From contig JAJPHL010000009.1 of the NCBI GenBank assembly GCA_021325275.1, positions 124,001 to 188,000 on the forward strand: 64,000 bases of DNA. The letters run 5' to 3'. The translations under genes were made by a program, and so were the position numbers. The notes beneath the pieces were generated by a model. The model was not told where the DNA came from, ran no database searches, and worked only from the letters and a program-made list of their open reading frames with translations. How positions within the stretch are numbered: position 1 is the stretch's first letter; every line of letters begins with the position of its first letter. Source of the stretch: Terriglobia bacterium (GTDB lineage Bacteria; Acidobacteriota; Terriglobia; JAJPHL01). Shown in pieces: positions 27,764-38,699 of this stretch.

Positions 27764-29170
27764 ATGACACGCGCCCGCACTTTCGCGTATTGGATCGCAC
27801 CGCCGGTGGTGTGCGCGATCCTCTATTGGCCCGCGCTAACCTCGTGGTTTCGGACGGACGATTTTTGGTGGCTGCAGTTTCATCCTGTGATCGCAGGCTT
27901 CGGCGATTTTCTCGCCGCCCTTTTCGGTCCACTGTCGCATGGAACCATCCGTTCCTGGAGCGAGCGGCTGCCGTTCCTGCTCTTTCCACGATGGTTTGGT
28001 CTAAGCGTTTGGCCGTTCCGTATTCTAGTTTTCGCGACCCACGCCGCGAATCTGATATTGATCACGCGAATCGGAACGCGGATGTTCGCCTCGCGCGCCG
28101 CAGGATTTGCGGCGGCGATTTTGTTTACCGTGAACAGCGGCATTATGCTGGCACTCGGATGGGTTTCCGCCTACAACCAAGTGCTTTGCGGATTCTTCCT
28201 GCTGCTGGCGCTCGATTCGTTGCAACGTTTTATCGAAACGGGCCAGCGCCGTTATTACATCTGGCAATGTGTCGCGTTTCTGCTGGGATTCGGCGCACAA
28301 GAGACGAATGTGGTCTATCCCGCGATCGCGCTTGCGTACGTGCTGTGTTTTGCGCCGCGATATTGGCGCGCCGCCGTGCCGCTCGGCATCCCGTCGATCG
28401 CCTACGTCGCGATTCTTCACGCCAGCGCACCATTCGCGGCGTCGGGACCGTACGCCATGCACTTCGACGGCTCGATTGTGAACACGTTCGTCACGTATTG
28501 GAGCTGGTCCGTTTCGTCCACCTACATGCGCGCGCCAATTCCGTTGCCCGGTTGGCTGATTCCGGCGGGTGCCATCGTCGTGTCTTTGGGATTGCTTGTC
28601 GCCGCGGCGCGCGCCAAGATGCCGGGAGCTTTTTGCCTCGCTTGGTTCGCTTTCGCGATCGCGCCGATGCTGCCGTTACGCGATCACGTGATGGAATACG
28701 CGGTGTATTTGCCGGTGATCGGCTTGTGCTGGCTCGGTGGAGCGGCGCTCGCCGAGCGGCACGCGGCTCCGTTCGCAATCGCTGCGATCTATCTCGCGAT
28801 GACGGTGCCGGAAGCCCGCTTCACCGCGCAGTGGAATCACGACCTGACCATGCGATTGCGCGACATGGTGCTCGGGGTGTGGGACCTCCATGCTCGCGCG
28901 CCGGAGAAAATCATCGTGGTTGCCGGTGTCGACGACGATTTGTTCCAGCACGCGTTCCTCGAGTTGCCCTTTCGGATTTTCGGTGCGAACAAAGTGTTTC
29001 TTTCGCCGGATACGAATGTTTCCGGCGCCCAAGACTTCATCATACCGACGCCGATTCTTTCTCATGGGCTGCAGTCCGGGGAAGTCACCGTTTACGATGT
29101 TCGCCGGCATGTTACTCCCACCTCAGCGCCCGCATCGGATCGATCCGCGCCGCGCGACGCGCGGGAATAA
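27764..29170 (+). CDS. Polytopic membrane protein, GT-C glycosyltransferase-like
   Basis: A protein of about 468 residues with roughly nine to ten hydrophobic segments and a soluble C-terminal domain. The early acidic motif RTDDFWWLQFHP after the first membrane helix resembles the DD/DE motif of GT-C (PMT-like) glycosyltransferases that use lipid-linked sugars, but the family is not certain. The start is ambiguous (ATG 27764 chosen; ATG 27754 is out of frame). The last ~20 codons read antisense through the 3' end of the permease remnant at 29112-29336, so the natural C-terminus may have been replaced. It lies just upstream of the polysaccharide operon. Confidence 0.65.
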   Translation: MTRARTFAYWIAPPVVCAILYWPALTSWFRTDDFWWLQFHPVIAGFGDFLAALFGPLSHGTIRSWSERLPFLLFPRWFGLSVWPFRILVFATHAANLILITRIGTRMFASRAAGFAAAILFTVNSGIMLALGWVSAYNQVLCGFFLLLALDSLQRFIETGQRRYYIWQCVAFLLGFGAQETNVVYPAIALAYVLCFAPRYWRAAVPLGIPSIAYVAILHASAPFAASGPYAMHFDGSIVNTFVTYWSWSVSSTYMRAPIPLPGWLIPAGAIVVSLGLLVAAARAKMPGAFCLAWFAFAIAPMLPLRDHVMEYAVYLPVIGLCWLGGAALAERHAAPFAIAAIYLAMTVPEARFTAQWNHDLTMRLRDMVLGVWDLHARAPEKIIVVAGVDDDLFQHAFLELPFRIFGANKVFLSPDTNVSGAQDFIIPTPILSHGLQSGEVTVYDVRRHVTPTSAPASDRSAPRDARE

Positions 29171-29336
29171 ATCCGGCCGCGATCGCCATCACCGGAAGCA
29201 GGCGCAGCAACACCTGGTCGAGCAGCGTGAAGATCGCTGTGTTCGCGCCGATCCCGAAGGCCAGGGACACAATCACCACCGCGCTGAAGACCGGATCGCG
29301 GAACAAACGGCGCACGGCATAACGGAAATCGCGCAT
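29112..29336 (-). pseudogene. Internally deleted ADOP-type (FtsX-like) ABC permease remnant
   Basis: A 74-codon open frame that fuses the N-terminal ~48 residues of an ADOP permease (MRDFRYAVRRLFRDPVFSAV and the first membrane helix with GIGANTAIFTLLDQVLL) directly to the family's C-terminal ending (GFIPARRAARIDPMRALRWE). Intact family members have around 800 residues. About 90% of the gene is therefore missing, yet the frame is kept. A residual 74-residue single-span protein could still be made, but the transporter function is lost. It is convergent with and overlaps the preceding membrane protein gene by 59 nt. Confidence 0.88.
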
Positions 29337-29383
29337 GAATCCCCCTTTGTTCTGAGACGCGCGCGGCAAGCCAAGGTTAGCCA

Positions 29384-29412
29384 TTTCTCGCACCTGGGGC
29401 CTGTGCTATGCT
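29384..29412 (+). promoter_or_regulatory. Candidate extended -10 promoter of the polysaccharide operon
   Basis: TTTCTC (29384-29389), 17 nt, then TATGCT (29407-29412), preceded by TGC, which makes an extended -10 element. It lies 36 nt upstream of the rfbA ATG in the gap after the permease remnant. The -35 match is weak. Confidence 0.45.
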
Positions 29413-29448: not shown

Positions 29449-30233
29449 ATGCTGAAAGGCGTTGTCTTGGCGGGAGGCACGGGAAGCCGGCTTTACCCGC
29501 TCACCAAGATCACCAACAAACACCTCCTGCCGGTCTACAACAAGCCAATGATCTATTATCCGATCGAGACATTGGTGAACGCCGGCATCCGCGACATCAT
29601 GATCGTGACGGGCGGAAAAAACTCCGGCGACTTTTTGCGCCTGCTCGCCAACGGTAAGGAATTCGGCCTGGAACACATCAACTACACGTATCAAGAAGGC
29701 GAAGGCGGCATCGCCGAAGCGCTCGGATTGGCCGAGCACTTTGCCGACAACAATGGATTGTGCGTGATTCTGGGCGACAACATTATTGAGGGCAACATTC
29801 GCGCCGCCGCCGACGATTTTCGCGCGCAGGGAATGGGCGCGAAGCTGCTGCTGCGCGAAGTGGAAGATGCCGAACGCTTCGGCGTGGCGGAAATCCGCGA
29901 CGGCCGCATCGTGGGCATCGAGGAAAAGCCGCGCCGCCCGAAATCGAATTACGCGGTGACGGGAATTTACTTCTACGATCACACGGTGTTCGAGAAAATC
30001 CGCCAGATTCACCGGTCGAATCGAGGCGAACTCGAGATCACCGACGTGAACAATCTCTACATCGCCGAAGGCCACATGACCTACGATTTCGTCGAAGGGT
30101 GGTGGACCGACGCCGGCACATTCGACTCGCTGCGCCGAGCCACGAACCTGGTCGCGGAGACCGGCGCGAACAATAAACGCGTGGGCACGCGCTCGGGCGC
30201 CGCGCTGGACAACGTGTTGGAGAAAGCCGGGGC

Positions 30234-30237
<4 letters not shown>
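29449..30237 (+). CDS. rfbA: Glucose-1-phosphate thymidylyltransferase family nucleotidyltransferase
   Basis: A 262-residue sugar nucleotidyltransferase that would form dTDP-glucose, the first step to dTDP-rhamnose. It has the signature GGTGSRLYPLT followed by the Lys-containing KHLLPVYNKPMIYYPIE, then LGDNI with a metal Asp, and EEKP. It is about 30 residues shorter than E. coli RmlA (about 293) and belongs to the short form that often heads archaeal and bacterial rfb clusters. It is the first gene of the operon and overlaps rfbC by four nucleotides. Position with rfbC, rfbB and rfbD supports the dTDP-rhamnose assignment. Confidence 0.9.
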
Positions 30238-31893
<1,656 letters not shown>

Positions 31894-31897
31894 AGCT

Positions 31898-32728
31898 GTG
31901 AGCGATCGCATTGCCATCACCGGATCGGCGGGAATGCTGGGCCGGGAGTTGGCGCGCGTGCTCGCCCCGCGCGATCCGATCCTTTGGGATCGCCATTCCT
32001 TCGACATCACCGATGCGGCCGCCGTACATCGCGCCATCTCGCAGGCGCGCCCGAGCGTGGTGATTCACCTCGCGGCGTATACGAAGGTCAACGACTGCCA
32101 GCGCCATCCCGACCTGGCGATGAGCGTGAATTCGCGCGGCGTACATGCGGTGGCCGAGGCGGTCAACGCGGTTGGCGCGCGGCTCGTCTACATTTCTACG
32201 GACTACGTTTTCGACGGACGCAAACGATCGCCGTACACCGAGGACGATCCTGTCTCGCCCGTCAACGCCTATGGACGCTCCAAAGCCGCCGGCGAAGGCA
32301 ACGCCGCGCTTGTTCCCGGCGCGCTGATTTTGCGTTGCGGCTGGCTGTTCGGCGCGGGCGGAAGGAATTTCGTGGAAGCGATCCGCGATCAAGTGCGCAA
32401 CGGCAAACCTTTGCGCGTCGTTAACGATCAGGTCGGCACGCCGATCTGGACCGGACATCTCGCGACGGCGATTGCGGCGCTGGTCGACGCGCGCGCCTCG
32501 GGCGTGTTGCACGCGGCGGCGTCGGGCTCTTGCTCGTGGTACGAATTTGCCCAAGCCATCGTGGAACTGTGCGGATTAAACGTACCGGTCGAGCCGATTT
32601 CCACTCCGCCCGGCGACACGCCGCGTCCCGCGTATAGCGTGTTGTCCGATGCACGGCTGTGCGCGCTCGGCATGGGTCCGCTGCCCGAATGGCGCGAGGG
32701 ATTGCGCGAGTATCTGCGGGCGCTCTGA
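31898..32728 (+). CDS. rfbD: dTDP-4-dehydrorhamnose reductase
   Basis: A 276-residue NAD(P)H-dependent SDR-type enzyme that makes the final product, dTDP-L-rhamnose. It carries ITGSAGMLGREL for cofactor binding, LAAYTKVNDCQRHPDLA, STDYVFDG, and the catalytic YxxxK as NAYGRSKAAGE. The length is slightly below the usual ~285-300. The start is GTG 31898, four nucleotides after the rfbB stop. The end overlaps the following glycosyltransferase by one nucleotide (TGATG). Confidence 0.93.
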   Translation: MSDRIAITGSAGMLGRELARVLAPRDPILWDRHSFDITDAAAVHRAISQARPSVVIHLAAYTKVNDCQRHPDLAMSVNSRGVHAVAEAVNAVGARLVYISTDYVFDGRKRSPYTEDDPVSPVNAYGRSKAAGEGNAALVPGALILRCGWLFGAGGRNFVEAIRDQVRNGKPLRVVNDQVGTPIWTGHLATAIAALVDARASGVLHAAASGSCSWYEFAQAIVELCGLNVPVEPISTPPGDTPRPAYSVLSDARLCALGMGPLPEWREGLREYLRAL

Positions 32729-33747
32729 TGAAAAGAGCCATGACGATTGTGCTCGACGGGACACCGGTTGTCGATGCGCCGTTCACGGGTATCGCGCGAT
32801 ATACGCAAGAATTAGCTGCGGCGCTTCGCGAATTGCATCCGGACGCACGCCTACTGCTGGAATCGTGTCCCCAAGAAGCGAGTTTGATCGAGGGCCGCTG
32901 GTGGAGTATTGGGTTGCCTCGCCGTCTCCGCGAAACCGGCGCGTCACTTTTTCACGGGACGGATTTTGCGGTGCCTCTGCTTGGGAAGACGCCCGCCGTC
33001 GTGACGGTCCCCGATCTCTCGCCGCTCCGCGCGCGCGAATTCGCGATGCCTCCGCAAGCGAAGCGCGTCGCCCGGCGCCTGCCCGGTGCGATCCGCCGTG
33101 CCTCCGCGGTCATCGTTCCTTCCGAACGCGTCGCGGAGGAAGTACGCCGGCGTTTTTCCGCGGCGCGCCAGAAAATCGCGGTGACGCCGCTGGCCGCTGC
33201 ATCCGCCTTTTCGCCGAGACCAGCCACGAAAACATCCGGCCAGTACATCCTCTACGTCGGATCGGGACAACGGCGGAAAAACCTCGACATGCTGGTGCGG
33301 GTTTTTTCCCGAATCCGCTCGGGACTCCGGCAGTCCATTGAGCTAGTGGTAGTAGGCGGCGGCTCGCAAATGGCGCTACAATCGGGAGTAAAGCAGATGC
33401 GCGGCGTGACGGACGAGGATCTGGCGAAGTTGTACTCCGGGACGTCGGCGTTTGTCTATCCTTCTTCGTACGAAGGTTTTGGTTTGCCGGTGGTGGAAGC
33501 AATGGCGTGCGGCGCACCTGTTGTGGCCGTTCGCGACACAGCCGCCGGCGACGTCGCAGGCGATGCCGCACTGCTAACCGACGGTTCGGAGCGCGCGCTC
33601 GAAGAAGGCTTGGCGGGGATTCTAGAGGATTCCGCCTGGTCCGGGGAATTACGGAAAAAAAGCTTGGCCCGGGCCAAGAGTTTTTCCTGGCGGCGCACCG
33701 CGGAACTTACATGGGGCGTCTATCAGGTAGCACTGGGAAACACGTGA
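32728..33747 (+). CDS. Glycosyltransferase family 4 protein
   Basis: A 339-residue GT-B glycosyltransferase. The N-terminal domain begins with DGTPVVDAPFTGIARYTQEL, which includes the Gly-rich acceptor-side loop. The C-terminal donor-binding domain has YVGSGQRRKNLDMLV and the GT4 EGFGLPVVEAMACGAPVVA motif, with the two Glu residues of the E-x7-E pattern. It transfers a sugar from a nucleotide donor to the growing polysaccharide at the inner membrane. ATG 32728 overlaps the rfbD stop, and the next gene overlaps its own stop as GTGA. Confidence 0.9.
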   Translation: MKRAMTIVLDGTPVVDAPFTGIARYTQELAAALRELHPDARLLLESCPQEASLIEGRWWSIGLPRRLRETGASLFHGTDFAVPLLGKTPAVVTVPDLSPLRAREFAMPPQAKRVARRLPGAIRRASAVIVPSERVAEEVRRRFSAARQKIAVTPLAAASAFSPRPATKTSGQYILYVGSGQRRKNLDMLVRVFSRIRSGLRQSIELVVVGGGSQMALQSGVKQMRGVTDEDLAKLYSGTSAFVYPSSYEGFGLPVVEAMACGAPVVAVRDTAAGDVAGDAALLTDGSERALEEGLAGILEDSAWSGELRKKSLARAKSFSWRRTAELTWGVYQVALGNT

Positions 33748-34871
33748 GCATGAAGGCGCTTTTTATTTCTCCGGAACCGCCCTATCCCGCCGATGGCGGC
33801 GGCGCGATCCGTTCGGCGTGCATGCTGGAATGGTTGGCGCGCCGTACCAGCGTTTCGGCGCTGGTGTGCGGAACGCCGGAGAGCCGCGTCCACGAGTTGT
33901 GCCATCGCGTGGAGTGCGTCGAGTTGCCGTATCACAGCCGCGGGACGTTCCCGCGCGTGTGGCGCAACCTCGACCGCGCGCTGCGCGGGATTCCGCCGCT
34001 CGTCGATCGGTTTTCGGCGCGCGAAATTCAAGTCGCGCTTGATCGCCTCCTGGAAGACGGCCCTTTCGATGTCGCGGTCTTCGAGCATTTTTGGATGGCC
34101 CAGTGGATTCACATGGTGCGTCCGCATTGCGAGATCGCCATTCTCGATTTGCACAATCGCGAAGCCGATTTTTGCCGCGCCCTCGGTGGACCGCTGGCAT
34201 TTTGGTTCGCACGTTGCGCCGAACGCTGGGAGCGCGATCTGCTTCCCGAGTTCAATCAAGTGTGGGACCCGCGCGTCGCGCCCACGGGACTCCCGTGGCG
34301 TTACGAAAGTCAAAACGCGCGCCTGTACGATGTGGCGTTTTCAGCGAGCTGGGATTATCCGCCGAATCAAGACGCGGTGAAGTGGTTTTTCCGCCGCGTG
34401 TGGCCACAGATTGTCGCGCGGCGTCCCGATTCGAAGATTGTGTTGATCGGCAAGCGCGACGATTGCCTGCCGCCAGCCGTGCGTGGTGATTCCCGTGTAA
34501 CGATCACCGGCGCCGTCGAGAATTCGGCCAGCTGGCTCGAGCAAGCCCGCGTGGCCATTGCGCCGCTGCGCCGCGGCGCGGGCGTCAGCGTGAAAATTGC
34601 GGAAGCGTGGCGGGCGGGCTGTGCCGTGGTTGCGACTTCGGTGGGCGCGCGGGGTTATCTCCCTGGCGAGGGAATCGTGACCGCCGACGAACCGGGAGAA
34701 TTCGCGTCCGCCGTGGCCGGCCTGCTGCTCGATTCCGCCCGCCGCCTACAACTCGCCAAAGCGGGACGCCGCCGCTTCGAGCGCGAGTTTTGCTGGAGCG
34801 CCGTGCACGAACGTCTTGATCGCCTGGCGCCGGAATTGTCGTTGTTGTTCGATGGCGAGGTGTTTCGATGA
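33744..34871 (+). CDS. Glycosyltransferase, GT4-like
   Basis: A protein of about 375 residues with a GT-B layout. The opening MKALFISPEPPYPADGGGAI is the usual N-terminal strand and glycine loop. The C-terminal half has NQDAVKWFFRRVWPQI, IVLIGKR, and PLRRGAGVSVKIAEAWRAGCAVVAT, the donor-binding Glu region of sugar-phosphate and PIMT-like transferases. Start GTG 33744 (overlapping the previous stop) or ATG 33750, two codons on. It is coupled to the neighbours on both sides by four-nucleotide overlaps, and the sugar is unknown. Confidence 0.82.
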   Translation: MSMKALFISPEPPYPADGGGAIRSACMLEWLARRTSVSALVCGTPESRVHELCHRVECVELPYHSRGTFPRVWRNLDRALRGIPPLVDRFSAREIQVALDRLLEDGPFDVAVFEHFWMAQWIHMVRPHCEIAILDLHNREADFCRALGGPLAFWFARCAERWERDLLPEFNQVWDPRVAPTGLPWRYESQNARLYDVAFSASWDYPPNQDAVKWFFRRVWPQIVARRPDSKIVLIGKRDDCLPPAVRGDSRVTITGAVENSASWLEQARVAIAPLRRGAGVSVKIAEAWRAGCAVVATSVGARGYLPGEGIVTADEPGEFASAVAGLLLDSARRLQLAKAGRRRFEREFCWSAVHERLDRLAPELSLLFDGEVFR

Positions 34872-36004
34872 CTCACCAATCGCGTATGCGAATCGCCATC
34901 GACGCCCACGCGCTGGGCCGCGGTCAAGCGGGATACGAAAGTTACCTCCGCTACCTGACGGCGGAATTACCGGCCGCCGCGCCCGACGCCGAGTTTTGGC
35001 TCTATGCCGGCCGCGACGCCGCGGCGCTGGACACCGCGATTCCGGCACACCGGGTGCTGTCGCACAGCCGCGCGCGCCGCTTGCTTTTAGATTTGCCGCG
35101 GGTGCTTCGCCGCGATCGTCCCGATCTTTTGCATGTGCAATACGTCGCGCCGTTTCCGTGTCCCGTGCCGGTGGTCGCAACGATTCACGATCTCTCGTTC
35201 ATCGACGTCCCACAGTTCTTTTCGGGCGTAGAAAGAATGCTGTTGCGCGCTGCGGTGGGGCGCACCGCGAGACTCGCCCGCCGCATCGTGACCGTATCGG
35301 AATTCTCAAAGCAACGCCTGATGGCGATTTACAGCTTGCCCGAAGACCGCGTGGTCATTGCGCCTAACGCCGCGGGACCGCATTTCCGTCCGGCCCGCGC
35401 GCCGGAAGATGTGCGCGCGCCTTACATCCTGATGGTGGGCGACCTGCAGCCGCGCAAGAATCACATTGGTGCGATTCGCGCATTCGCTGAGTTCTCGCGC
35501 GCCACGCGGCATCGGCTAAAGATCGCCGGGCGGCAAACCCACTTCGTCGCCCAGATTCGCCGCGAAGCCGCCGCGTCGGGCGCCGGCGATCGCATCGATT
35601 TTCTCGGCTACGTTCCGGACGCCGATCTTCCCGCGCTCTATCGCGGCGCCGATTGCTGCTTGTATCCATCGTTCTACGAAGGCTTCGGATTGCCGGTGCT
35701 CGAGGCGATGGCCTGCGGCACTCCCGTCGTTACGTCACGCGGCACGGCACTCGAGGAAGTTGCGGATAGCGCGGCGATTTTGGCCGACGCCAGCGATCCG
35801 CGCGACATCGCCCAAGCGCTTCACGGCGCGATCGCGCGTCGCGCCCAACTCTCCGCCGCCGGACTCCGCCGTGCACGCCGTTATTCTTGGAGCGAATCGG
35901 CGCGCGAGACCGCGAGGGCTTTCCGCGAAGCGTTGGGAATTACAGGGGACATCGCGAACGTGGCCGCGCCGGTACCCGTGCCGGACGAGGTGCAAACATC
36001 GTGA
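34868..36004 (+). CDS. Glycosyltransferase family 4 protein
   Basis: A 378-residue GT-B transferase. The N-terminal domain reads MRIAIDAHALGRGQAGYESYL, and then come VATIHDLSFIDVPQFFS and VTVSEFSKQRL, a set common in mannosyl/rhamnosyl GT4 enzymes. The donor domain has MVGDLQPRKNHIGAI and YEGFGLPVLEAMACGTPVVT. ATG 34868 overlaps the preceding stop (ATGA); the downstream gene starts with GTG overlapping this stop. It probably adds mannose or rhamnose, an inference from the family only. Confidence 0.9.
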   Translation: MTHQSRMRIAIDAHALGRGQAGYESYLRYLTAELPAAAPDAEFWLYAGRDAAALDTAIPAHRVLSHSRARRLLLDLPRVLRRDRPDLLHVQYVAPFPCPVPVVATIHDLSFIDVPQFFSGVERMLLRAAVGRTARLARRIVTVSEFSKQRLMAIYSLPEDRVVIAPNAAGPHFRPARAPEDVRAPYILMVGDLQPRKNHIGAIRAFAEFSRATRHRLKIAGRQTHFVAQIRREAAASGAGDRIDFLGYVPDADLPALYRGADCCLYPSFYEGFGLPVLEAMACGTPVVTSRGTALEEVADSAAILADASDPRDIAQALHGAIARRAQLSAAGLRRARRYSWSESARETARAFREALGITGDIANVAAPVPVPDEVQTS

Positions 36005-37224
36005 GCAAGCCGAAGATGTTGATCATCTCGCCGGTGACGCCCTACCCCGTGTTCCACGGAGCGGGCAGCGCTATCTTCGGCTACCTGCGCGTGCTGCGCG
36101 AGGATTTCGATATTCTCTTCGCGGGATTTTGTCCCGAGAAATTGCTGAAACAAGCCGACGAAGGCCTGCGTCTGTTGTGCCGCGACGTTTTTGTGATGGC
36201 GCCGCCCGAACTGCGCTACGTCGATGCCTTCGATCCCACGCCGTTTTATTTTTCGAATCTCAAGGATGAGAGATTCCGCCAAGGCGTGCGCGATCTCTAC
36301 GATCGTCACCATCCGGAAATGATTCAGGTGGAATACCTGAATATGGCCGAGTACGCCGACGGACTCGCGGGCGTTCGCGTGCTGCGTGCGCACGTGCAGG
36401 ATTGGTGGCATTTCTACATCGGCTGGAAGCAATGTCTCTCGCGCCGCGAACGCGTGACGAAATTACTCGGTTGCTTCGACACGATTGTGCACAATCGCCG
36501 CATGATGCGGCGCTTCGACCGCATTCTCGTGACGCATGAAGAGGAAAAAATCCACGCCCTGGAGATTTGTCCCGAGTCCCTGGTCGACGCGCTGCCATTT
36601 TTGCTGATGGATTGCGAGCAGTTCACGCCCAGCACAAAAATTGCTCCCGATCCAATCATGATTTTTGTGGGTTTCCTTCCCCATACCCCCAATGAAGAAG
36701 GTCTTCGCTGGTTTGTGGAAAACGTTTATCATCTAGTGAAGCGCGAAGAACCGAAGGCGCGGTTGATTGTGGTGGGATCAGGGGCATCGAACGGAATGAA
36801 AGGGTTGATGCACGATCACGGTGTGGAATATCCGGGATTCGTAGAAGACTTGCGGGCTCTCTATGCGCAGACTCGCGTTTACGTCGCGCCGATCATGAGC
36901 GGCGGCGGAATCCGCACCAAGATTGTCGAAGCGATGTCGGCGGGCATGCCGGTGGTCTCCACTCATTTCGCGCCCTTGGGAATCGGCACGAAGCCGGGCG
37001 TGCATCTGCTGGCCGCCGACGATCCTCGCGAATACGCCGGTCACGTACTCAGCTTGATGCGTGACGACGCGATGTGGTGGCGCATCCGCGATAACGCGCG
37101 CCGTTTCATCGAGGAGAATTTCAGCTTGCAGGCGAACGGTCCCGCGGTGGCGCATCGCTATCGCCAGTATTTGGCGGAGGGTGGAAAGCAGCGCGTCGCG
37201 AGCCAAGAGGTGAACGTAGCATGA
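36001..37224 (+). CDS. Glycosyltransferase, GT4-like
   Basis: A 407-residue GT-B type protein. The first strand and loop are MLIISPVTPYPVFHGAGSAIF. The acceptor domain continues with an EYLNMAEYADG helix and HVQDWWHFYIGWKQ. The donor domain carries MIFVGFLPHTPNEEGLRWFVE, then VGSG and PIMSGGGIRTKIVEAMSAGMPVV. It resembles the PslF/WbuB-like glycosyltransferases of exopolysaccharide clusters and the gene at 33744. The start is GTG 36001 in a GTGA overlap. The stop overlaps the next ATG by four nucleotides. Confidence 0.82.
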   Translation: MSKPKMLIISPVTPYPVFHGAGSAIFGYLRVLREDFDILFAGFCPEKLLKQADEGLRLLCRDVFVMAPPELRYVDAFDPTPFYFSNLKDERFRQGVRDLYDRHHPEMIQVEYLNMAEYADGLAGVRVLRAHVQDWWHFYIGWKQCLSRRERVTKLLGCFDTIVHNRRMMRRFDRILVTHEEEKIHALEICPESLVDALPFLLMDCEQFTPSTKIAPDPIMIFVGFLPHTPNEEGLRWFVENVYHLVKREEPKARLIVVGSGASNGMKGLMHDHGVEYPGFVEDLRALYAQTRVYVAPIMSGGGIRTKIVEAMSAGMPVVSTHFAPLGIGTKPGVHLLAADDPREYAGHVLSLMRDDAMWWRIRDNARRFIEENFSLQANGPAVAHRYRQYLAEGGKQRVASQEVNVA

Positions 37225-38699
37225 AGGCGGTCCTCTTCGCCACCGGACCATCGGATCACGCCGCCGCCGAAGCGCGCGCGCTGCGCGAACGTTTGGGTCC
37301 CGATTCCGTGAGTGTGGTCGCGGCGCGCGGTGAGAAAGCCGCGGTTCTGCACGCCGTCTCTGTTTTGCCGTCTCCGGCGGCCGATGTTCCAGTGCTCGAA
37401 GCCGGACCGCTTGTAGTCTTCAAAATTTGGATGGCCATCGGGCTGGCATCGACGGAAGTATTTTGTCTTTCCAATCAGCAGGTACAAGGAAAAGCGCATC
37501 GCTTTTTGAAATTGATGGCGTACGCCGTACGCGGACGCGTGGTGTTCGTGCGTCCCGATGGCCGCGCGCCCTTGGGATTGTGGTCGTTCCTTTGGGTGAC
37601 GCTCAGCCGTTTGTGGTCTCGCGGCAATGGCGCTTTGCTGGTTGGCTCGGCGTCGCCGGAAACGTTGCGGCGACTGGAAGCGGATTTGCGCGCGCGCCGG
37701 CCCGGCGCCGACGTTCACGTTCTCGCAAATCCCTCGCCGCTCGATTTTCTGCGGATGATTCGCAATTGGCGGCATTATTGCTATCTTTCCATTCCGTGGA
37801 CGGGCGAGGGTCACAACTTCTTAAAACTTGCCGCGTGGGTCTTGCCTTGCGGCCATCGCGAAATCTACAACGAAGCCGGCGACTCGTTTTCCGTCCGCTT
37901 GATCGGCACACTCGCCGCGCACATCGGCCGCCGTTTCCGCGAACGCGCCGTGGCCATCTGGAACGGAGTGCGCTATGCGGCCTGGAAGACCGGTGAGAAA
38001 CTCCACGCTGCGTGGAACGGCATTCGTTACGCCGCTTGGTGGTCGGGCGACGCGCTGCTCTCCGGTTGGTACAAATTGCTGGCGATTCCATCGGGCGTCA
38101 CCGTGATCGGATCGGCGTCCGGTTACTACTTGCGTGGAATTGTCGCCGACTTGCGGCGCAAAAATCCCGGCGCGCCGATCTACGGAATCCTGCCGGAGAA
38201 ACTGGTCGAGCCCGCGGGACCACTATTCGACGCCGTGATCCCCATGCGTTTCACAGCGATTCTCGCGCACGCGGTTGGACCGCGCCGCACCGGTTGGTGC
38301 GCCATTCCCTGCACGAACGAAGGCTACAACGGCTACAAGTGGATTGCGTGCTTCATGCCCCTCGGCCATCGCAAGGTTTACAACGAAAACGGCGACGGCT
38401 ACGCGGTCCGCAATTGGCGCACCATGGTGACCCACGCGCACTGGCGCCTGAAGCATCGTTTGTTTTACCAGGCGTTCACAGAGCGGCGCGGCCGCTCATG
38501 GCCCGTCGTGTGGATGCATTTGCTGCTCTATCCGTTTCGCTTAGTAGCCGGCGCGGCCTTGTTGGCGATGGTCCGTTTGCGCGCGAAACGCTATCCCGCC
38601 ACGCGCTTGATGTCACACGAAACCCCGCCGGTCCCGCGAATCGCTCCGATCTTCCAGAATGAAGAACCCGTCGCGTCAGGAAAACCCGAATCGGTTTAG
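37221..38699 (+). CDS. Unrecognised protein with a triplicated ~90-residue module, last gene of polysaccharide operon
   Basis: A 492-residue protein of no family I can name. Three related modules are visible at about residues 1-115, 138-226 and 293-397. Modules B and C share GSAS, a following helix ending in [RK]xPGA, then an [IW]PxTxEGxN-x2-K-x-[AI]-x5-P-x-GHR-x-[IV]YNE-x-GD segment. Module A is diverged. Between B and C lies a shorter direct repeat, WNG[VI]RYAAW (247-255, 265-273). A hydrophobic stretch near 430-450 may anchor it to the membrane. It is coupled to the glycosyltransferase upstream (ATGA), so a role in polysaccharide or lipid-linked glycan assembly is likely. Similar conserved segments occur, as far as I recall, in acidobacterial glycan clusters. 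Confidence 0.6.
   Translation: MKAVLFATGPSDHAAAEARALRERLGPDSVSVVAARGEKAAVLHAVSVLPSPAADVPVLEAGPLVVFKIWMAIGLASTEVFCLSNQQVQGKAHRFLKLMAYAVRGRVVFVRPDGRAPLGLWSFLWVTLSRLWSRGNGALLVGSASPETLRRLEADLRARRPGADVHVLANPSPLDFLRMIRNWRHYCYLSIPWTGEGHNFLKLAAWVLPCGHREIYNEAGDSFSVRLIGTLAAHIGRRFRERAVAIWNGVRYAAWKTGEKLHAAWNGIRYAAWWSGDALLSGWYKLLAIPSGVTVIGSASGYYLRGIVADLRRKNPGAPIYGILPEKLVEPAGPLFDAVIPMRFTAILAHAVGPRRTGWCAIPCTNEGYNGYKWIACFMPLGHRKVYNENGDGYAVRNWRTMVTHAHWRLKHRLFYQAFTERRGRSWPVVWMHLLLYPFRLVAGAALLAMVRLRAKRYPATRLMSHETPPVPRIAPIFQNEEPVASGKPESV

Follow-up and report, generated by a model that had tools for sequence, protein, structure and literature searches.

The protein P0001, encoded downstream of a dTDP-rhamnose and glycosyltransferase gene cluster in the window (the whole stretch of 64,000 nucleotides that was analysed), consists of three tandem modules which sequence-profile comparisons establish as remote homologues of the N-terminal, acceptor-binding domain of the GT9 glycosyltransferases. 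P0001 is a half-GT9 homologue devoid of both the catalytic Asp and the donor domain, and is thus not a GT9 enzyme. That it works instead as a non-catalytic, membrane-anchored scaffold, binding the acceptor on behalf of the GT4 glycosyltransferase encoded directly upstream, is given about an even chance of being correct. A donor-less GT-B half, repeated up to seven times, predicted to be tethered to the membrane, and recurrently associated with the same GT4 as its neighbour or fusion partner, represents an unusual reuse of a glycosyltransferase, and no published description of such half-GT9 repeats was found in the part of the literature that was searched. Acidobacteriota are abundant and poorly studied soil bacteria; the P0001 family would offer a handle on the building of their surface polysaccharides, and supplies many of their "hypothetical proteins" devoid of any Pfam family with a name and with diagnostic residues.

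Gene Organization and Operon Position

The cluster successively comprises the dTDP-rhamnose gene set, four genes of the GT4 type according to Pfam, and the P0001 gene, which occurs as a single copy in its own genome (Table 1). The product of the gene located directly upstream of P0001 matches the Pfam family Glyco_trans_1_4 with an E-value of 6e-26, and the tetranucleotide ATGA at 37221-37224 forms the overlap between the start of P0001 and the stop of this GT4 gene. An earlier sequence-only reading described a translational coupling of P0001 to four glycosyltransferases; the overlap supports coupling to a glycosyltransferase, and Pfam places all four upstream genes in the GT4 type.

Table 1. 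Location of P0001, its modules and the associated genes in the window.
Feature	Position	Strand	Remarks
dTDP-rhamnose genes (rmlA/rmlC/rmlB/rmlD-like)	29449..32728	+	Head of the cluster; Pfam
Three further overlapping GT4-type genes	32659..36004	+	Pfam
Partner GT4 glycosyltransferase	36001..37224	+	Start taken as GTG 36001; longest frame 35887-37224
Shine-Dalgarno-like AGAGGTGA	37206..37213	+	7 nt before the P0001 ATG; read from sequence
Tandem-module protein P0001	37221..38699	+	492 aa; open frame from ATG 37221 to stop 38699
Module A	37221..37613	+	Residues 1-131; diverged, without NE..D signature; profile, and strand/helix order in the full-length model
Module B	37620..37985	+	Residues 134-255; shortened in the middle; B-C z = 28.9, HMM match
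N-E-x-x-D of module B	37869..37883	+	N217, E218, D221; invariant in the family alignment
Helical linker B-C	37986..38084	+	Residues 256-288; low confidence; AlphaFold2 full-length model
Module C	38085..38480	+	Residues 289-420; five-stranded Rossmann-like domain, GT9 N-domain homologue; AlphaFold2, Foldseek, hhalign
C-T-N-E-G loop after strand 4 of module C	38310..38324	+	Residues 364-368; conserved T and E
N-E-x-x-D of module C	38382..38396	+	N388, E389, D392; just past strand 5; family alignment
C-terminal hydrophobic helix	38499..38591	+	Residues 427-457, ...HLLLYPFRLVAGAALLAMVRLR; helix in the full-length model

Modular Organization of P0001

Modules B and C are closely related, with a local alignment score of 164 compared to 28 +/- 4.7 in shuffled sequences (z = 28.9), a score equalled in none of 2000 shuffles. 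The pairwise similarity of A to B is weak, its score being reached in 2 of 2000 shuffles, and none was detectable between A and C by local alignment against shuffles; compared as a profile with the wide set of modules, A nevertheless matches with a probability of 95.4 and an E-value of 1.8e-8. A pairwise self-BLAST of P0001 listed no repeat, and the scores given here for A, B and C come from local alignments set against shuffled sequences. The prediction of three modules, two of them clearly related, thus stands, with A as a third, diverged copy detected by profile only, but the modules of approximately 131 (A), 122 (B) and 132 (C) residues are larger than the 90-110 residues originally assigned to them.

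Both motifs noticed in the sequence occur as described: the T-x-E-G-x-N-x2-K pattern reads WTGEGHNFLK in module B and CTNEGYNGYK in module C, and both modules contain GHRxxYNExGD. Five residues, N98, E99, D102, H115 and R119 in the numbering of module C, are invariant across the close homologues. The N, E and D of the N-E-x-x-D motif of module C belong to these, and its N is nearly invariant in all groups of modules.

Downstream of module C, the full-length model shows a helix alone and no further domain, the donor-binding domain being absent. The hydrophobic C-terminal helix (about residues 427-457), which was omitted from the earlier description of P0001, contains the segment YPFRLVAGAALLAMVRLR with a borderline 19-residue hydropathy of 1.69 and carries an FP[FL]R-type motif. 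A hydrophobic C-terminal helix with this type of motif is common to most relatives; that of P0001 is likely a membrane anchor.

Relationship to the GT9 N-Terminal Domain

Searches of P0001 against Pfam, NCBIfam, PHROG and PDB sequences returned no family match, the GT9 model PF01075 failed to match even at an E-value of 10, and no Pfam GT4 or GT2 domain occurs in the protein. Weak phmmer matches to designed TIM barrels and PDB HMM matches to Rag GTPase were dismissed as chance.

The relationship becomes apparent when profiles are compared. The modules of the close family and those of a more distant branch match each other with a probability of 98.0 and an E-value of 2e-13 over 125 columns. Against a GT9 reference profile, built from 30 GT9 N-terminal domains, almost all of them belonging to proteins of the class, hhalign gave the distant modules a probability of 97.0 and an E-value of 9e-11 over 115 columns, these hhalign E-values applying to single comparisons rather than to database searches. 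The combined modules and the single-module set reached 96.6 and 90.0, respectively. The close family taken alone scored only 13.5, and its link to GT9 is therefore transitive, by way of the distant branch. Controls consisting of GT4-N, GT28-N, an epimerase, an ABC ATPase, and the reversed and column-shuffled GT9 profiles all remained at or below 8.3 against the modules. The GT30-N control did not exceed 4.8 with each module subset and reached 56.6 with the pooled modules, GT9-N and GT30-N themselves matching at 38.0. In addition, the HMM designated A5 also matches open reading frames marked by the GT9 Pfam model, e.g., G001:C642 and G000:C13, which provides independent support for the GT9 kinship.

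Substrate binding in GT-B enzymes is divided between the two domains, with the acceptor in the N-domain and the donor in the C-domain (PMC5713226). The proposed catalytic base of HepI is D13, and the D13A mutant is 4688-fold weaker (PMC5713226). The catalytic Asp of the GD motif occurs in 30 of the 30 GT9 proteins and is lacking from all 16 close modules; 6 of the 19 distant modules possess an Asp in that column, within a stretch which is ambiguously aligned. Instead, the modules display a K...N-E-x-x-D...R signature at columns where GT9 has other residues, with frequencies across modules of 88-100% for K, 89-100% for N, 37-100% for E, 63-100% for D and 53-100% for R. In P0001 this signature is present in modules B and C and lost from module A, which is recognized by profile only.

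The absence of any known family, as first reported for P0001, holds with respect to direct matches in the libraries searched, where the family is unnamed, but not with respect to the remote homology with the GT9 N-domain: a known domain is newly arranged, and no new fold is involved. Similarly, a placement in GT9, which had been set against the idea of an unknown family, applies to the N-terminal half and does not extend to the catalytic Asp and the donor domain, both of which are missing.

Predicted Fold of the Modules

The AlphaFold2 model of module C, calculated from a 22-row module alignment (pLDDT 88.5, pTM 0.80), consists of five strands alternating with helices, the last helix being long. 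In a Foldseek comparison of this model with the PDB, the first rank was occupied by WaaF from E. coli (1psw, GT9), with an E-value of 7e-3, a probability of 1.00 and a TM-score of 0.49, a structural match which, taken alone, is no more than suggestive. The conserved N and E are located just past strand 5 and the T-N-E residues just past strand 4. This position at the C-terminal ends of the strands suggests a typical predicted ligand site, and the impression that the conserved Glu, Asn, Asp and His residues are ligand-binding fits the model in this respect. The full-length model of P0001 is poor (pTM 0.33) and too weak to read the packing of the modules, module A showing a strand/helix order like that of the other modules.

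Distribution and Architectures of the Family

A class-wide protein search identified homologues in seven other genomes, one from the same order and six from a single different family within the class. A further match in G122 (L009, E 9e-4) was rejected as a relative, the matching strand containing no such gene. Six of the seven close homologues were located in GTDB contigs; among their source genomes are Candidatus Sulfopaludibacter and several Acidobacteria MAGs. A scan of genome contigs with a single sequence found no relative, and relatives were found with an alignment as the query. The close homologues possess two or three signature-bearing modules preceded by a diverged N-terminal one. 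Those of family f7, and only those, end with a degenerate GT2-like domain, recognized by a weak match (Pfam E 7e-4, one member tested). This C-terminal domain (e.g., in L040:9176-11182) apparently lacks its N-terminal half and shows DSE/DSQ where DxD is expected, and, from these residues, is possibly inactive.

The second, distant branch was uncovered with the module HMM; it belongs to other families within the phylum, and its proteins each contain between two and seven modules. The largest representative, L051:5874-8858 (-) from G432, consists of 994 aa with seven tandem modules, its gene adjoining that of an approximately 764-aa protein similar to GT2-GT4. Single-module proteins of about 180-240 aa also occur, in two subgroups, S1 and S2, so that the number of modules per relative ranges from one to seven. 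At E <= 0.001, the wide HMM matched 53 of 396 genomes in a phylum sample and 113 of 399 in a class sample, counts which include some true GT9 genes.

Association with GT4 and Genomic Context

The same GT4 gene occurs directly upstream in all seven close loci (six in addition to the window), the window copy being 48-62% identical to the other six. All close homologues belong to a glycan-operon context, and the multi-module relatives mostly occur in O-antigen or other glycan operons. In the f7 loci, the downstream genes encode a DUF3108 protein, a GT4-methyltransferase, an ABC-2 permease, a Wzt ATPase with a Wzt_C domain and a methyltransferase, as assigned by Pfam for the L040 and L041 examples and by sequence likeness for the others; these loci are typical ABC-transporter-dependent O-antigen clusters.

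Among the more distant relatives, a GT2-GT4-like protein of about 760-820 aa, assigned by Pfam for the L049 copy and from similarity for the rest, adjoins six of the seven multi-module genes. In other cases the domains are fused: L142:4719-7415 (+), L144:2989-5751 (-) and L146:5751-8435 (+) encode proteins of about 900 aa in which an N-terminal module precedes a GT2 and a GT4 domain, assigned by Pfam for L142 and L144 and from sequence likeness for L146, and L143:2164-5196 (-) encodes a 1010-aa protein with two modules, an apparent degenerate GT2 stretch and a GT4 domain. The GT4 halves of the GT2-GT4 proteins match the product of 36001-37224 better overall than the other three GT4s of the window. 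The S1 single-module genes overlap a GT4-like gene in four loci (L120-L122 and L130). As read from gene order and fusions, this Rosetta-stone pairing of the modules with GT4 is the main clue to their function.

The association with glycan operons, the constancy of which the sequence-only reading had proposed to survey, is not universal among the homologues, since the S2 single-module relatives, which possess both the anchor helix and the signature, occur in housekeeping contexts. Their neighbours, identified by sequence likeness only, comprise cysteine desulfurase, citramalate synthase and quinone oxidoreductase-like genes, and no glycosyltransferase. In L123, L140 and L145, the S2 gene adjoins a cysteine desulfurase-like gene and has no glycosyltransferase beside it.

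Possible Function and Alternative Explanations

Owing to the combination of acceptor-type halves lacking their donor halves, a predicted anchor and a link to one particular GT4, P0001 is best interpreted as a scaffold that holds the acceptor. Three GT9 acceptor-half domains would be strung together and tethered to the inner membrane by the terminal helix, in a putative complex whose other member would most likely be the GT4 encoded directly upstream. The conserved T/E, K, N-E-x-x-D and R residues, clustered along the C-terminal edge of the sheet, would bind a lipid-linked or growing rhamnose-containing glycan, and the modules would retain this glycan at the membrane during the addition of sugars by the GT4 and its partners. 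A bolder extension, in which the number of modules (one to seven) of a phylum-wide tethered holder or ruler would tune the chain length or the processivity of the partner GT4/GT2, is quite improbable.

It is rather unlikely that the module binds something else, such as a polyprenyl phosphate, a nucleotide or a partner protein, and represents a general membrane-tethered adaptor reused by glycan operons. The anchored, signature-bearing S2 proteins of housekeeping contexts agree with such an adaptor, and the conserved Lys could hold a phosphate, but the acceptor-domain ancestry and the repeated link to one GT4 subfamily favour glycan work. The basic role of the module may nevertheless exceed glycan assembly, because the S2 relatives lack glycosyltransferase neighbours.

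It is likewise unlikely that P0001 is an active enzyme, either with modules facing each other as pseudo-GT-B halves or with each module acting as a transferase or hydrolase through N-E-x-x-D, K, H and R. GT-B enzymes consist of two such domains, the gene lies among glycosyltransferases, and the five residues N, E, D, H and R, which do not vary within the close family and of which N and E lie just past strand 5, would suit an active site; the conserved N, E, D and K set could also serve catalysis. However, neither the GT9 catalytic Asp nor a nucleotide-sugar domain is present, single-module proteins keep the signature, which shows that pairing is not required, the module number varies from one to seven, and in some relatives the modules are joined to complete domains of the GT2 and GT4 types, which could perform the catalysis. 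Of the two functions proposed by the sequence-only reading, a tandem enzyme or a glycan-binding scaffold, the scaffold would accordingly be favoured, and the tandem enzyme appears less likely in view of the missing catalytic Asp and donor domain.

A functionless, decayed GT9 remnant would account for the loss of the catalytic residue, of the donor half and of the signature of module A, but is very improbable considering the conserved frame, the invariant residues, the synteny and the recurrent fusions seen in many of the families of the phylum. A wholly unrelated new fold or family, in line with the lack of Pfam, NCBIfam, PHROG and PDB sequence matches, is highly doubtful in the face of the confident Rossmann-like model, the top match to WaaF, the specific GT9-N profile match and the clean controls.

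Comparison with Known Systems

The GT9 ADP-heptose:LPS heptosyltransferases WaaC and WaaF (PF01075) resemble P0001 by the fold of their N-domain, the profile homology over about 115 columns and the surface-glycan context. Unlike these enzymes, the P0001 modules possess neither the Asp of the GD motif nor a C-terminal donor domain, and the module family is repeated one to seven times, with its own K...N-E-x-x-D...R signature and a hydrophobic C-terminal helix. KpsC, a dual-module capsule enzyme (PMC10148158), and the GT2-GT4 fusions, as examples of multidomain polysaccharide glycosyltransferases, similarly combine several GT-related modules per chain or operon for a surface polysaccharide. Their modules are complete enzymes, whereas the P0001 unit is a half-domain without donor site, sometimes joined to complete GT2 and GT4 domains in relatives. 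With respect to the Wzm/Wzt O-antigen systems (Wzt_C, PF14524), a Wzt-like ATPase occurs in the cluster of the homologues L039 and L041-L043, Pfam confirming Wzt_C in L041 and ABC2_membrane in L040. P0001 itself is no component of a transporter, and the Wzt_C genes of its own genome are located on other contigs.

Additional Observations in the Same Genome

A 186-aa single-module paralogue with an anchor helix is encoded on contig C19 of the same genome (L141:7243-7803, -), near a Skp/OmpH-like gene; it belongs to no Pfam family. Upstream of the cluster in the window, a 93-aa open reading frame (29112-29393, -) fuses an ABC-transporter permease-like start (RDFRYAVRRLFRDPVFSAVVIVSLAFGIGANTAIFTLLDQVLLRLLP) to what is apparently the very end of such a protein (AGFIPARRAARIDPMRALRWE) and, judged by eye, is probably an internally deleted permease remnant.
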